This document shows, one piece after another, positions 2,675-41,014 of a DNA stretch of 64,000 nucleotides. Numbering within the stretch: position 1 is the stretch's first letter; every line of letters begins with the position of its first letter. The notes beneath the pieces are model-generated. The model was not told where the DNA came from. It saw only the letters and a program-made list of their open reading frames with translations, and did no database searches. The position numbers and the translations under genes were made by a program. The stretch is from Halomarina ordinaria (GTDB lineage: Archaea; Halobacteriota; Halobacteria; Halobacteriales; Haloarculaceae), in the NCBI RefSeq assembly GCF_030553305.1, contig NZ_JARRAH010000001.1:2294001-2358000 (forward strand). The letters are read 5' to 3'.

Positions 2675-3394
2675 TCAGGCACCTCCCTCGCCCTCGCCCT
2701 CGCCCTCGACGTGGACGGTCACGCGCTCGCCGTCGTCGACGCCGAGTTCGTCGCGCAGGCGGTCCGGCGCGATGAGTTCGAGCTGGTCGGCGTCGTGGTG
2801 GGTCCGCTCGGGGGCGATGGCGTGGGCGGGGCCGTAGCGCGTCCCGTCGCGCTCGACGACCACGGGCCAGCAGAACGCCGGGCCGTAGGTGCGCTCGTCG
2901 TCCTCCCACCCCTCGATGCGGACCGGGTCGAGCGCGTCCATCGCCGCCCGCGAGCGCGTCGACGCCTCGTCGAGTTCGACGTTGAGCGTCCCCGGGAACG
3001 GCTCGTAGCCGAGTTTCTCCTCGAACTGTCGCTTGTACCCCGAGAGCGAGATGTAGTGACGCCCCTCGCCCATCCCGCTGGTCACCGTCCCGGCGAGGGT
3101 GAGCGAGCGGTCGGCCTCGAACAGGCGGCGGTAGTCGGCGTACTCGCGTTCGAGCGTCCGGCGCCCCGCGTCGGTGGCGGCGACGAACTGTCCGTCGGCG
3201 AACAGTTCGCGCTCGACGAGACCGGCGTCCTCGAGGGTCTGGAGGCGCCGGGAGGCCGTCTGCGTGGACACGTCGAGGCGCTCGGCGAGCCCCGCGCAGG
3301 TGACGCGCGCGCGGTCGTCGAGCGCGCCCCGGAGCGCGAGGACCTTCAGCGTCTCGCGGGCGTCCGCCCCGACCGCGAGCGATGGTTCTGCCAT
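2675..3394 (-). CDS. rbkR: Winged-helix CTP-dependent riboflavin kinase, RbkR-type regulator
   Basis: A 239-residue two-domain protein. Residues about 15-80 form a winged helix ([27 protein letters not shown]). Residues about 95-230 are an archaeal riboflavin kinase, with the phosphoribosyl-loop-like GTLNVELDE and the CTP/FMN-site motif [18 protein letters not shown]. Archaeal kinases of this type use CTP instead of ATP to make FMN. The fused form is known as RbkR, which also represses or activates riboflavin genes. Here it heads an operon with ribB and is preceded by a 20-bp perfect palindrome at 3423-3442, fitting autoregulation. The C-terminus ends in a low-complexity EGEGEGEGG tail. The start is the ATG at 3394; a GTG at 3400 is possible. 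Confidence 0.92.
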
Positions 3395-3422
3395 GCCCAC
3401 ACTCGGGTCGTGAGCCGCATAA

Positions 3423-3442
3423 GCGTACCGAATACGGTACGC
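3423..3442. promoter_or_regulatory. Palindromic operator upstream of rbkR-ribB
   Basis: The sequence GCGTACCG-AATA-CGGTACGC is a perfect 8-bp inverted repeat with a 4-nt centre, 29 to 48 bp upstream of the rbkR ATG. A TATA-like CGCTTATGC on the minus strand (3416-3424) touches its inner edge. A dimeric winged-helix protein bound here would therefore block or aid TFB/TBP loading. Assigning it to RbkR rests on position and on the fused regulator being the first gene. The exact haloarchaeal RbkR consensus was not compared. Confidence 0.7.
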
Positions 3443-3575
3443 GTCTCAATTCTGGAACAGCACGGGAAGAGCGGCAGTTGCCGTCGTCGAGATGTCGGGG
3501 CTCGTGCGGGTAAGCCTGCCGGCTCGGCGCAGGGAGTAACGAAACCCGTTTACCGGCCCCCGGGCAAGCCGGGGT

Positions 3576-5333
3576 ATGTTCCTTCCCTTCCGTGACGAGG
3601 TCCGGGCCGTCCTGACCGACGCGCTCGACGCGCAGGGGTACGAGCCGTCGGACCTCGGTATCGAGGAACCACCGACGGACGTCGACGCCGTCCTGGCGTC
3701 GAGCGTCGCCTTCCGCCTCGCGAGCGAGGCCGGCGCCCCCCCACCGCGGGTGGCCGCCGAACTGGTCGAAGCCATCGACACCGCCGACACCGAGTACGTC
3801 GGGAACGTCGTCGCCCAGGGGCCGTACGTCAACTTCCTTCCGAGCGAGGCGTACTTCGCCGACACGCTCGCCGCCGCGCAGGACGAGGCGTTCGGCGACC
3901 TCCCCGACCGCGGCGAGTCGGTCGTCGTCGAACACACCTCCGCGAACCCGACCGGCCCCGTCCACGTCGGCCGGGCGCGCAACCCCATCGTCGGCGACGC
4001 CGTCGCCAACGTCCTCGACCTCGCCGGCTACGACGTCGAGCGCCACTACTACGTCAACGACGCCGGCCGGCAGGTGGCGGTGTTCACCTGGGCCTACGAG
4101 ACGTTCGACGAGGGCGACCTCCCGCCGCCCGAGCGCGACCGCGTCGAGTACGACCTCGTGCGCTACTATCGCAAGGGCAACGCGTTCCTCGACGCGGCCG
4201 ACCCCGATGAGGTCGAGGCCGCGGAGGCGGAGATACAGGCCATCCTGCAGGGGCTGGAGGAGGGCGACGAGGCGACCTACGAGCGCGTCTCGGCCGTCGT
4301 CGACGACGTGCTCGCCGGGATGCGCGAGTGTCTGGCGCGCCTGCCCGCGGCGTTCGACGAGTTCGTCAAGGAGACGCGCTTCATGTTCGACGGGGCGACC
4401 CAGGACGTCGCCGACCGCCTCCGAGACACCGAGTACGCCTACCTGGAGGAGGGGGCCTGGCAACTCGACCTCTCGCCGTGGGGCTTCGAGAAGGACCTCG
4501 TCTTCCTGCGGTCCGACGGGACCTCCCTCTACACGACCCGCGACCTCGCGCACCACGAGTGGAAGTTCGAGAACTACGACCGCGCGGTCACCGTCCTCGG
4601 CGAGGACCACCGTCTGCAGGCCGAACAGCTCGACCGGGCGCTCCAGGTCCTCGGCAACGACACCGATGCGCTCTCACAGGTGTTCTTCGGCTGGGTGAAC
4701 CTCCCCGGCGGCGAGAGCATGTCCACCCGGCAGGGGACCGGCGTCGACCTCGACGACCTGCTCGACGAGGCCATCGCCCGCGCCCGCGACGAGGTCGAGT
4801 CCCGCCTCGACACCCGCATCCGCGACGACGACCTCACCGAGGCGGACGTCGAGCGCATCGCCCACCAGGTCGGCATCGGCGCCGTCCGCTACGACATCAT
4901 CTCCAAACAGCCCCAGAAGGGCATCACCTTCGAGTGGGACCGGGCGCTCGACTTCGAGGCGCAGTCGGCACCCTACGTCCAGTACGTCCACGCCCGCGCC
5001 TGCGGCATCGTCGAGGAGGCGCGCGCGGCGGGCGTCGACCCGGCGCTCGACGCCGCCCACCTCGTCACCGAGGAGGAGCGCGACCTCCTGCGCGTCGTCG
5101 CGCGCTTCCCGGGGGCGGTCGACCGCGCCGCGTCGGACCTCGAACCCCACCGCATCGCGACCTACACCCGCGAGTTCGCCGAGACGTTCAACGCCTTCTA
5201 CCGCGAGTGCTCGGTGCTCAACGCGGACAGCGAGGCGGTGGCGGCGGCCCGTCTCGCGCTCGTCGTCGCGGCCCGGAACACCGTCGCTCGCGCCCTCGGC
5301 ACCCTGGGCGTCGCGGCGCCCACCTCAATGTAG
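3576..5333 (+). CDS. argS: Arginyl-tRNA synthetase
   Basis: A 585-residue class I synthetase charging tRNA-Arg. It has an N-terminal tRNA D-arm binding domain (about 1-110). The HIGH-equivalent is in [13 protein letters not shown] near residue 130, and the KMSKS-equivalent is MSTRQGTGV near residue 382. A C-terminal DALR anticodon-binding domain ends the protein ([15 protein letters not shown] onward). Length and motif order match archaeal ArgS. The ATG at 3576 follows a 180-bp gap shared with the divergent rbkR. Its last codons overlap a small convergent membrane-protein frame. Confidence 0.96.
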
Positions 5334-36409: not shown

Positions 36410-37444
36410 ATGGACCTCACTCACCGCCCCCGCCGGCTCCGGACCGACGGGATTCGGCCGCTGGTGCGCGAGACGACGCTGTCGCCGTCGGACCTCATCG
36501 CCCCCGTCTTCGTCGACGCGACGACCGACGAGCGCGTCCCCATCGGGTCGATGCCCGGGCACGTCCGGGTCCCCGTCTCGGGCATCGTCGACCGCGTCGA
36601 GGAGGTGCTGGAGACGGGCGTCGAGGCCGTCATGCTGTTCGGCATCCCCGAGTCGAAGGACGAGGTCGGGTCGCGCGCCTACGCCGAGGACGGCGTCGTC
36701 CAGCGGGCGATGCGCGCCGTGAGCGAGGAGACCGACGCCTACGTCGTCGGCGACGTCTGTCTCTGTGAGTACACGAGCCACGGCCACTGCGGCGTGCTCA
36801 CCGACGAGGCCCGCGGGCGGTGGGAGCGCCTCCACCGCGGCGACGACCCGGCGCACGTCACCGACTCGTCGCTCACCGTCGAGAACGACCGGACGCTCGA
36901 CCTGCTCGCGCGCACGGCCGTGTCGCAGGCCGACGCGGGCGCGGACATGGTCGCCCCCTCCAGCATGACCGACGGGATGGTCGGCGCGATTCGGGCGGCG
37001 CTCGACGACGCGGGCCACGAGGACGTCCCGGTGATGAGCTACGCCGCGAAGTTCGAGTCGGCGTTCTACGGCCCGTTCCGCGACGCCGCCGACGGCGCGC
37101 CCGCCTTCGGCGACCGGAGCCACTACCAGATGGACCCCGCGAACGCCCGCGAGGCGATGCGCGAGGTGCGCCTCGACGTCGAACAGGGCGCGGACGTGCT
37201 GATGGTCAAACCAGCGCTCCCCTACCTCGACGTGGTCCGGGCCGTCCGCGAGACGTACGACCACCCCGTCGCCGCCTACAACGTCAGCGGGGAGTACGCC
37301 ATGCTCCACGCCGCCGCCGAGAAGGGGTGGCTCGACCTCGACGCCGTCGCCCGCGAGTCGGTCCTCTCCATCAAGCGCGCCGGGGCCGACCTGGTGGTGA
37401 CGTACTTCGCCGAACGTCTCGCCGAGGACCTGTCGACCCCCTGA
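36410..37444 (+). CDS. hemB: Porphobilinogen synthase
   Basis: A 344-residue delta-aminolevulinate dehydratase. It joins two 5-aminolevulinate molecules to porphobilinogen. The cysteine-type metal site CLCEYTSHGHC (C117, C119, C127) suggests a zinc form. The Schiff-base lysines are in MSYAAKFESAFYGPF and LMVKPALPYLD, and the product site motif YNVSGEYAM is intact. It is separated by 302 bp from the ammonium-transporter fusion. Other tetrapyrrole genes (hemL, hemC, sumT, hemD) lie within 10 kb. Confidence 0.96.
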   Translation: MDLTHRPRRLRTDGIRPLVRETTLSPSDLIAPVFVDATTDERVPIGSMPGHVRVPVSGIVDRVEEVLETGVEAVMLFGIPESKDEVGSRAYAEDGVVQRAMRAVSEETDAYVVGDVCLCEYTSHGHCGVLTDEARGRWERLHRGDDPAHVTDSSLTVENDRTLDLLARTAVSQADAGADMVAPSSMTDGMVGAIRAALDDAGHEDVPVMSYAAKFESAFYGPFRDAADGAPAFGDRSHYQMDPANAREAMREVRLDVEQGADVLMVKPALPYLDVVRAVRETYDHPVAAYNVSGEYAMLHAAAEKGWLDLDAVARESVLSIKRAGADLVVTYFAERLAEDLSTP

Positions 37445-37746
37445 GTCGCGATACCCCGGCGCGCGCGAGGCCGAATTGACTGTCTGGCAACATTTGCACT
37501 GGACGAACGTCCGGATAGAATCGGTGTAGACGTGGGGTTTCTGGACGGTAGACGACCTTATATCGATAATATCGTACCGTATTTTGGACGAGTCGGTTTT
37601 AATGCGGGCAATATTTTGTAATATTCAAGCAAGCGCTTATGTAGTGGTACTCCGTGGGGTTCTATCGTGATTTGGAATCACGGTCTTCCGAAATTCGGGG
37701 GAAAGTTGGACGAAAGTGTATCCGATAGCCCTGGGGTGAGCCGCTG
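37445..37746. promoter_or_regulatory. AT-rich leader of the Amt-PII gene with palindromes
   Basis: The 302-bp gap has no gene but dense structure. It contains TTATATCGATA (37559-37568, containing palindromic TATCGATA), TTTTAA (37597-37602), AATATT-TTGT-AATATT (37610-37625), CGTGATT-TGG-AATCACG (37666-37682, perfect 7-bp arms) and CCGAA-A-TTCGG (37688-37698). GGAA and TTCC half-sites at 37674-37689 are spaced by 8 nt. The stretch 37555-37630 is much AT-richer than the genome. This is a strong candidate for a nitrogen-regulated promoter with one or more operators. Confidence 0.7.
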
Positions 37747-39402
37747 ATGGCGCTGCTCCAGGCCGACCCGACCGCCATCGTCCAGTCCGTCAACTACGTG
37801 TGGGTGCTGGTGGTGACCTTCCTCATCTTCTTCATGCACGCGGGGTTCGCGATGCTGGAGGCGGGGCAGGTCCGCGCCAAGAACGTCGCCAACCAGTTGA
37901 CGAAGAACATGCTCACCTGGTCGGTGGGCGTGACGGTGTTCTTCCTGCTCGGCGCGGGCACCGAGGCGCTGGTCGCCTCCGTGACCGGCGGCGCCGACTA
38001 CGGCGGCTTCTTCGCGCTGCTGAGCGCCACCGACTCGCTCGCGTGGGTCGACTGGCTGTTCGGCGCCGTCTTCGCCATGACCGCCGCGACCATCGTCTCC
38101 GGCGCCGTCGCGGGCCGGATGAAACTCCGCGCGTACGTGGGCTACACCGTCGTGCTCGCCGCGGTCATCTACCCCGTCGTCACCGGCCTGACGTGGGCCG
38201 GCGGCTGGCTCTCCACGCTCGGCTTCACCGACTTCGCGGGCGGCATGATCGTCCACGCGATGGGCGGCGTCGCCGCGCTGACCGCCGCCGCGATGGTCGG
38301 CCCGCGCATCGGCCGGTTCAACGACGACGGCTCGGTCAACGTCATCCCCGGCCACTCCATCACCTTCGCGGTGCTGGGGACGCTCATCCTCTGTTTCGGC
38401 TGGTACGGCTTCAACGTCGGCACCGCCGCGGCCCCGCTGGCCGAGGGCGCCACCGAACTGGCCGACTTCAGCTACGTCGGCCGCGTCGCGCTGACGACCA
38501 CTCTCGGCATGGCCGCGGGCGCCATGGGTGCCAGCGCGATGTCGCTGGCGAGGAACCGCAAGGTCGACACGCTGTACGTCGCCAACGGCATGCTCGCCGG
38601 CCTCGTCGGCATCACGAGCAACACCGACCTCATCACGTGGGCCGGCGCGCTCGTCATCGGCGGCCTCGCCGGCGCGCAACTCCCGCTGGTGTTCGAGTTC
38701 GTCGAGAAGCGCCTCAACATCGACGACGTCTGTGCGGTCTTCCCGGTCCACGGGAGCGCCGGCATCCTCGGCGCGCTGCTGGTCGGCGTGCCCATCTTCA
38801 CCGTCCCCGACGCGGGCGTGAGCTTCGTGAGCCAACTCGTCGGCGTCGTCGTCATCGCCGGCTGGACCGTCCTCGCCACCGCGGTCGTCCTGGGCGTGTT
38901 CAAGGCGGCCGGGCAACTGCGCGTCACCCGCGAACACGAGATCGAGGGCCTCGACATCTCCGAACACGGCGTCGAGACCTACCCCGAGTTCAGCCTCGGT
39001 GACGAACCCGTCGTCGCCGACGGCGGTATCGTCCGGACCGACGGCGGCGTCGAGACGGGCGGCATCAAGCTCGTCATGGCGTACATCCGCCCGGACAAAC
39101 TCGCCGACGTGAAGCGCGCGCTCGCGGAGGTCGGCGCCCCCTCCATCACGGTCACGAACGTCAGCGGCCGCGGCTCCCAGCCCGCGAAGAAGAGCCAGTG
39201 GCGCGGCGAGGAGTACGTCGTCGACCTCCACCAGAAGGTGAAAGTCGAGTGCGTCGTCGCCGAGGTGCCCGCCGCCGAGGTCGCCGAGGCCGTCCGCGAC
39301 GCGGCCAAGACCGGCGAACCCGGCGACGGCAAGGTGTTCATCCTCCCCGTGGAGAACGCCTACCAGATCCGCACGGGCGAGGTGGGGGTGGAAGCGGTCT
39401 AG
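37747..39402 (+). CDS. amt: Ammonium transporter fused to a C-terminal PII domain
   Basis: A 551-residue fusion. Residues 1 to about 410 are an Amt/Rh transporter with eleven helices. The pore histidines are in [10 protein letters not shown] (about 170) and [11 protein letters not shown] (about 335). After a short linker, residues about 440-551 are a full PII (GlnK) domain: [21 protein letters not shown]-loop [20 protein letters not shown] with the Tyr corresponding to modifiable Y51 near residue 490, then [17 protein letters not shown] and RTGEVG. No ATG or GTG occurs in the linker, so a separate PII cannot simply start there. PII normally plugs Amt when 2-oxoglutarate is low; here tethering would fix that coupling. 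Confidence 0.95.
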
Positions 39403-39519
39403 GCCGACGGGTGGGTTCCGGACGATACGCCGGCGCGACCCGCGAGCGCGTGCGTGCTCAACCCAGTGCTCGCGGTCGGGCCGCCCACCGGCGGCGTCGT
39501 AGGTGGGAACCGTAGACGA

Positions 39520-39539
39520 GTCGGGTCGACCGACCCGAC
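39520..39539. repeat. Inverted repeat upstream of hemL
   Basis: GTCGGGTCG-AC-CGACCCGAC is a perfect 9-bp inverted repeat with a 2-nt centre, 118 bp after the amt fusion stop and 132 bp before hemL. It may be a terminator hairpin of the upstream gene or an operator for hemL. No T-run is adjacent. The remaining gap (39403-39670) shows no gene. Confidence 0.4.
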
Positions 39540-39670
39540 AGTCGCCGCCGATGGTTCGCTACTTCCTGCTCGCGACCGTCGTGTCCTCCACGACGGTCCA
39601 TGCTCGCACCGACCAGCGGCCGCGCAGCGCGGACGGTAGCTACTTTTCGCCCCCGCGTGAACCTCCAGCC

Positions 39671-41014
39671 ATGAACCGCGAGACGTCTCGTGACCTCTAC
39701 GACCGGGCGCTCTCCGTCCTGCCCGGCGGCGTCAACTCCTCGGTGCGGGCGACCCAGCCCTACCCGACGTTCGTCCGCCGGGGCGACGGCGCGCACGTCG
39801 TCGACGTGGACGGCAACCGCTACCTCGACTACGTGATGGGCTACGGCCCGCTCCTGCTCGGCCACGACCTCCCCCAGCAGGTGCAGTCGGCCGTCCAGCG
39901 CGCCGCGAGCGAGGGGCCGATGTACGGCGCCCCCACCGAGGTCGAAGTCGACCTCGCGGAGTTCGTCGTCCGGCACGTCCCGAGCGTGGAGATGGTCCGC
40001 TTCGTCAACTCCGGCACCGAGGCGACGGTGTCGGCGGTCCGCCTCGCGCGCGGACACACGGGGCGGAACAAGCTCGTCGTCATGCAGGGGGGCTACCACG
40101 GCGCCCAGGAGTCGACGCTCGTCGAGGGCGACGCCGAACACCCCCGACCGTCCACCAGCGGCATCCCCCAGTCGTTCGCCCGCGAGACGCTTCCCGTCCC
40201 GTTCAACGACGAGGCGGCCGTCCGCGAGGTGTTCGAGCGCCACGGCGACGACATCGCGGGCGTCCTCGTCGAACCGATGCTCGGCAACAACGGCATCGTC
40301 CTGCCCGTCGACGGCTACCACGACACCCTGCGCGACCTCTGTGACGAGTACGGTTCGCTCCTGATATTCGACGAGGTCATCACGGGCTTCCGCGTCGGCG
40401 GCCTCCAGTGCGCCCAGGGGAAGTTCGGCGTCACGCCCGACCTCACCACGTTCGGGAAGATCGTCGGCGGGGGCTTCCCCGTCGGTGCCATCGGCGGTCG
40501 GGCCGAGATACTCGAGGCGTTCACCCCGAGCGGCGACGTCTTCCAGTCGGGCACCTTCTCGGGCCACCCCGTCACGATGGCCGCCGGCCTGGAGACGCTC
40601 CGGTTCGCCGCCGACGAGGACGTCTACGACCACGTCGACGCCCTCGGCGAGCGCCTCCGGTCGGGGCTCGTCGACGTGCTGGCGGACCACGCGCCCGAGT
40701 ACACGGTCGTCGGGACCGACAGCACGTTCAAGGTGGTGTTCACCCGGGCGAACACGCCCGCACAGGACGGCGCCTGTTCGACCGGCTGTGCACAGCGCCC
40801 CGACTGCGCACGCTTCGAGGCCTGCCCGAAGACCGGTGCCGACGTGGGCAACGCCGAGACGGAGCGCTGGGAGCGCCTCTTCCGACCGTTCATGCGCGAG
40901 CAGGGCGTCCTCCTCCCCGCCAACCAGTTCGAGACGCAGTTCGTCAGCTACGCGCACACCGAGGCGGATATCGAGGAGACGCTCGACGCCTACGAGGCGT
41001 TCTTCACGGGCTGA
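39671..41014 (+). CDS. hemL: Glutamate-1-semialdehyde 2,1-aminomutase with Cys insert
   Basis: A 447-residue fold-type I PLP enzyme converting glutamate-1-semialdehyde to 5-aminolevulinate in the C5 heme pathway. Motifs include [12 protein letters not shown] at the start, [13 protein letters not shown], and the PLP lysine in [15 protein letters not shown]. Near residues 369-383 it carries an extra segment with four cysteines, [19 protein letters not shown] (pattern C-x3-C-x5-C-x5-C), absent from E. coli HemL; it could bind a metal or Fe-S cluster. The ATG at 39671 is at the family's usual start. Its end overlaps the wHTH gene on the other strand. Confidence 0.95.

Follow-up and report, generated by a model that had tools for sequence, protein, structure and literature searches.

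Does Halomarina ordinaria make its ammonium transporter (Amt) and the PII (GlnK) protein which regulates it as one polypeptide and, if so, how would control of ammonium uptake proceed in such a chain? The question was raised by an initial annotation of a stretch of 64,000 nucleotides of its DNA (in the following called the window; contig 1 of genome G000, positions 2294001-2358000), which had read one open reading frame as an Amt fused covalently to a complete GlnK/PII domain. This reading was confirmed. The frame is unbroken from its ATG at 37747 to the stop codon at 39400-39402, and both Pfam domains are essentially of full length (Table 1). Ammonium_transp matched residues 18-412 (E 1.3e-96; 324 bits versus a cut-off of 23.2; profile positions 1-399 of 399), and P-II matched residues 441-545 with its full-length profile and above its cut-off (E 1e-24). 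The PII domain shares about 80% identity with Haloferax mediterranei GlnK2; it has PII-type secondary structure in the predicted model and matched structure 4OZN. An AlphaFold monomer model (mean pLDDT 78) supports both folds, but not a docking of PII on Amt; a docked arrangement was not read from it, since linker and T-loop have values below 50 and a monomer only was modelled. The flanking genes are hemB (36410-37444) and hemL (39503-41014), so that the context of the locus gives no hint of a nitrogen role.

Table 1. Coordinates of the features of the fusion gene and its upstream region (positions in the window).
Feature	Position	Strand	Remarks
Palindrome TGGACGAACGTCCG	37500..37513		247 nt 5' of ATG; near-copies before many haloarchaeal amt genes
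Shine-Dalgarno-like GGGGTGA	37733..37739	+	7 nt 5' of ATG; by eye
amt-glnK fusion gene	37747..39402	+	551 aa plus stop; ORF and Pfam
Amt/AmtB domain, residues 18-412	37798..38982	+	Pfam and alignment of fused proteins
Linker, residues 413-438	38983..39060	+	acidic, Asp/Gly-rich, low pLDDT
PII/GlnK domain, residues 439-551, free C-terminus	39061..39399	+	Pfam, predicted structure
ATG444, first in-frame start-type codon past the Amt domain	39076..39078	+	within PII beta-strand 1
T-loop, PII numbering 37-55 = residues 476-494; Q478 (Q39), R486 (R47), Y490 (Y51)	39172..39228	+	

A sequencing artefact or a lost stop codon was rejected as the origin of the long frame, since the same open frame is present in relatives and the linker varies in the manner of coding DNA. 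All of 102 fused genes (the window's own included; 29 were fetched first) have the same uninterrupted frame; the named close relatives include Halomarina and Halocatena species. In 26 non-overlapping pairs of close relatives, linker differences at codon positions 1/2/3 amounted to 95/77/227, a bias which indicates that the linker is translated in this frame and is under selection. Between the equivalents of Amt residue 412 and PII residue 439 the 102 fusions have linkers of 19-87 residues (median 31), with Gly and Asp as the commonest residues; in the window protein it comprises 26 residues, is acidic and rich in the same two amino acids. The fusion in L122 (G094; positions 2754-4601) contains a linker of 87 residues, made of repeated IRTDGG-type units, and in the related L123 a stop is found in the same frame past the Amt tail.

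The genome of Halomarina ordinaria (99.9% complete) yielded a single match each for P-II and Amt, in both cases the fusion gene, and one glutamine synthetase; the fused PII is the only PII of this genome. The notion that the fusion is unique to it was discarded, as many relatives possess the same fusion. When haloarchaeal genomes were searched for the fusion and for separate glnK genes, as the initial annotation had proposed, the fusion turned out to be common: it was present without interruption in about 60 of 146 genomes of the family (hand counts from tables, a few partial matches included). By hand count, about 42 of these approximately 60 genomes had no other PII, and about 27 of the 42 were at least 90% complete. 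In a sample of 392 genomes of the order, at least 130 of the best matches listed extend, with no stop, from close to the N-terminus up to approximately residue 551; nine matches, all from one genus, aligned equally well with exactly one in-frame stop. A sample of the phylum showed again haloarchaeal genomes with the fusion, and all the listed matches from outside the order which spanned both domains contained at least one stop, as is expected of adjacent, separate amt and glnK genes with a stop between the domains. Single genes for Amt-PII exist also in Bacillota (Ruminococcus albus 7, WP_013483901.1; Enterococcus raffinosus, WP_222227351.1; Monoglobus, WP_320691151.1), where they are annotated simply as "ammonium transporter". 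These have the same order, Amt followed by PII, but their identity to the window protein is about 33-38% over the match and their linkers are longer; they represent probably an independent fusion. Across Halobacteriales the Amt-PII fusion is common rather than rare, and it is present in Bacillota.

How the fusion may have arisen can be judged from the separate gene pairs. The Amt tree consisted of two clades, one with 27 rows, all separate, and one with 118 rows, which contained all 87 fused and 31 separate proteins. On this tree the label fused or separate requires about 16 changes, and 11 of the changes were forced by well-supported branches; horizontal transfer may be behind some of these switches. 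The tree of the PII domain had too few columns for resolution. Tandem arrangements of the type amt-glnK-(Amt-PII) were found in several relatives, and amt-glnK-amt-glnK in Haloferax; one separate pair of the Haloferax tandem belongs to the Amt clade which contains the fusions. A single in-frame stop ahead of the glnK start is present in the second pair of this tandem. A second glnK was observed directly 3' of the amt-glnK pair in L150 (2196-3020) and directly 3' of the fused gene in L097 (5372-6386). In separate pairs the Amt tail carries often ADGG or RTDGG motifs, with the glnK start near the Amt stop, and GlnK begins often with MSD..PNDGG-IKMV; the fused linkers read RTDGG...PNDGG-IKLV. By these motifs the linker is the former Amt tail followed by the N-terminal extension of GlnK, minus stop and start, and the fusion most likely originated when an amt-glnK pair with close spacing lost its stop/start junction. 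The placements of L124, a separate pair which branches within the subclade of the window protein, and of L122, which is fused and stands beside separate sisters, suggest that switches occur in both directions, from separate to fused and from fused to separate.

Fused and separate amt genes may share a control element. With up to two mismatches, the palindrome TGGACGAACGTCCA was found in 70 of 160 upstream regions of haloarchaeal amt genes (including loci L026, L064, L066, L091, L104, L115, L126 and L152) versus 5 of 800 shuffled ones; it precedes both types of amt alike, in some cases at a distance of 56-57 nt from a TATA-like box. The genome of Halomarina ordinaria contained 92 sites, versus 21 for the reversed control. 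No regulon was recovered from the genes near the copies of the palindrome, and several copies with one mismatch are located inside long open frames. The palindrome is considered a candidate operator of a nitrogen regulator. A perfect inverted repeat, CGTGATT-TGG-AATCACG (37666-37682), is situated 64 nt 5' of the start codon; the core of this repeat is present a single time in the window and is absent from the upstream regions of all other fused relatives.

The residues of the Amt conduction path are present, i.e., the twin His (H170, H335), the Phe gate (F109, F222), D162 and W150; together with T226, which takes the position of Amt S219, they are invariant in 74 aligned fused proteins. The equivalents of PII residues R9, Q39, R47, K58, G87, K90 and R103 are invariant in all 102 fused proteins. 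Ligand residues in the window protein are R448 (R9), Q478 (Q39), K497 (K58), K529 (K90) and R542 (R103), and the Arg47 at the tip of the T-loop, which plugs Amt, corresponds to R486. Mean entropy of the T-loop was 0.23 bits in fusions versus 0.37 in separate PII (the sets were not matched); by this measure the T-loop appears to be at least as conserved in fusions as in separate PII, and not relaxed. It is identical to the T-loop of Haloferax GlnK2, which was solved with ATP. PII position 101 is Gln (not Arg or Lys) and position 38 is Ser, likewise in separate haloarchaeal GlnK; thus, the 38-101 salt bridge of the ADP state of Archaeoglobus fulgidus GlnK3 would be absent here.

The initial annotation had noted a T-loop Tyr near residue 490, which could also still be modified. 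The residue itself was found as described, since Y490 aligns with Y51 of PII. Its modification is doubtful, since no match to the GlnD domain (PF08335) was obtained in this genome, with a model which gave a match in just 3 of the 14 controls and misses Haloferax volcanii too, and since the equivalent of Tyr51 is Phe in three fused relatives (L028, L029, L050). In separate PII, 80 of 80 proteins examined have Tyr at this position. Uridylylation of GlnK was, however, reported for Haloferax mediterranei (cited in PMC3831643), so that the Tyr of the fusion may still be modified.

An assimilatory Amt with covalent GlnK, whose tethered PII domains trimerise and plug the pores at nitrogen sufficiency, is in our opinion the likely nature of this protein; a fixed 1:1 stoichiometry and a PII trimer formed in place would be the best-supported mechanism. 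Three chains should form the Amt trimer, and the three C-terminal PII domains on their flexible linkers could assemble into the usual PII trimer at the cytoplasmic face. The reach of the linker is probably not limiting; as an estimate, even 19 residues could span about 60 Å. When ammonium is abundant, with 2-oxoglutarate low and ADP bound, the T-loops would insert Arg486 into the pores and uptake would stop; upon nitrogen limitation, MgATP/2-oxoglutarate would spread the T-loops and the pores would open, with PII remaining tethered. We infer trimer geometry, pore plugging and ligand response of the fusion. In the known AmtB-GlnK complexes (Escherichia coli, 2NUU/2NS1; Haloferax mediterranei AmtB1-GlnK) the families, pore residues, R47 and T-loop are the same, but two polypeptides are present and soluble GlnK is released reversibly, whereas here PII is part of one chain and stays unless it is cleaved. 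Haloferax mediterranei GlnK was described to co-precipitate with AmtB1 in membranes upon ammonium shock, in a reversible manner (PMC3831643). For Archaeoglobus fulgidus GlnK3, insertion of R47 into the pore and release by 2-oxoglutarate were reported, with the ADP form as the plugging one and a widening of the Arg47 triangle from 31 to 46 Å by MgATP/2-oxoglutarate (PMC3198391). A C-terminal tag on PII is reported to disturb 2-oxoglutarate binding, and an N-terminal tag to matter less (PMC8395244); a tether at the N-terminus and a free C-terminus fit with retained sensing, and by analogy this domain order should preserve it. Against the predicted sensing and plugging count the missing 38-101 salt bridge and the observation that Archaeoglobus fulgidus GlnK2 reportedly fails to bind 2-oxoglutarate, despite nearly identical pocket residues.

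The tethered PII could, alternatively, act mainly on another target, for example glutamine synthetase, which would be held at the membrane when the T-loops leave the pores. Such a role would suit a sole PII alongside a single glutamine synthetase; Haloferax GlnK activates the enzyme in vitro (cited in PMC3831643), the T-loop is the one of Haloferax GlnK2, and Methanosarcina mazei GlnK1 was reported to bind glutamine synthetase via its T-loops (PMC10651883). A dodecameric enzyme would have to dock, however, on a membrane-tethered trimer, and the proposal is compatible with pore plugging rather than opposed to it; as the main function it is unlikely, though not negligible.

Cleavage of the fused chain in the linker, or production of PII by internal initiation, would lead to ordinary separate Amt and soluble GlnK. 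The linker is predicted to be disordered, ATG444 is located just inside PII, and the 16 changes on the Amt tree look as if linkage mattered little. It had been noted, however, that the linker codes for no Met and that its Val codons are all GTC, so that PII could not simply be started separately, and this was borne out: codons 405-443 are free of ATG, GTG and TTG. A start at ATG444, whose Met is not conserved among fused relatives, would drop the first residues of beta-strand 1. Within the linker, ATG is present in only 8 of the 102 fused genes and any of the three start-type codons in 37, with no fixed place in the 29 genes inspected; a conserved internal start of PII was rejected. A conserved cleavage-like motif was not found in the linkers beyond the DGG-type repeats, which occur also in separate Amt tails. 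Separation of the two parts by either route is regarded as rather improbable.

A role of the Amt part as ammonium sensor, with PII as its output domain in the manner of the Ks-Amt5 histidine kinase, is very improbable, although the closest solved Amts in sequence and fold are the sensors Ks-Amt5 (6EU6) and Sd-Amt1 (8QJ3) with about 33% identity, since the two-ion site (D50, T51 and Q24 of Ks-Amt5 are T57, W58 and H31 here) and the pore block of helix 1 (Y30 and F34 are L37 and Q41, with F27 retained as F34) are mostly absent by hand alignment (PMC5764959), the pore residues are intact, the protein is the sole Amt of the genome, and GlnK is the partner of the related AmtB1 of Haloferax. Ks-Amt5 and Sd-Amt1 resemble the fusion in having a cytoplasmic C-terminal signalling domain attached to Amt, but the output domains differ, and Ks-Amt5 is non-transporting; its particular ion site is not conserved in the window protein.

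Fusions of Amt to other domains are known (PMC5764959), and transporters of other families were described with a fused cytosolic regulator, such as LacS with an EIIA-like domain and MgtE with CBS (PMC10710835). Control of Amt by PII is known as well; a description or experimental study of an Amt-PII fusion was not found in the open-access papers searched, which does not prove absence, and an earlier mention is possible.

The usual picture of PII is that of a diffusible hub which serves many targets. Least expected is that in many genomes a membrane-tethered PII is the only one. Haloarchaea which possess solely the fusion could show, as a natural test, for which of its tasks PII has to diffuse, and a comparative series is provided by the repeated changes from fused to separate genes or the reverse. 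The covalent plug fixes the stoichiometry of a normally transient complex and should aid structural work. There is also a small chance that all PII signalling in these organisms is confined to the transporter and that other targets, above all glutamine synthetase, are regulated by recruitment to the ammonium pore, since the sole PII stays at the membrane; transport and assimilation would then be one coupled membrane assembly.
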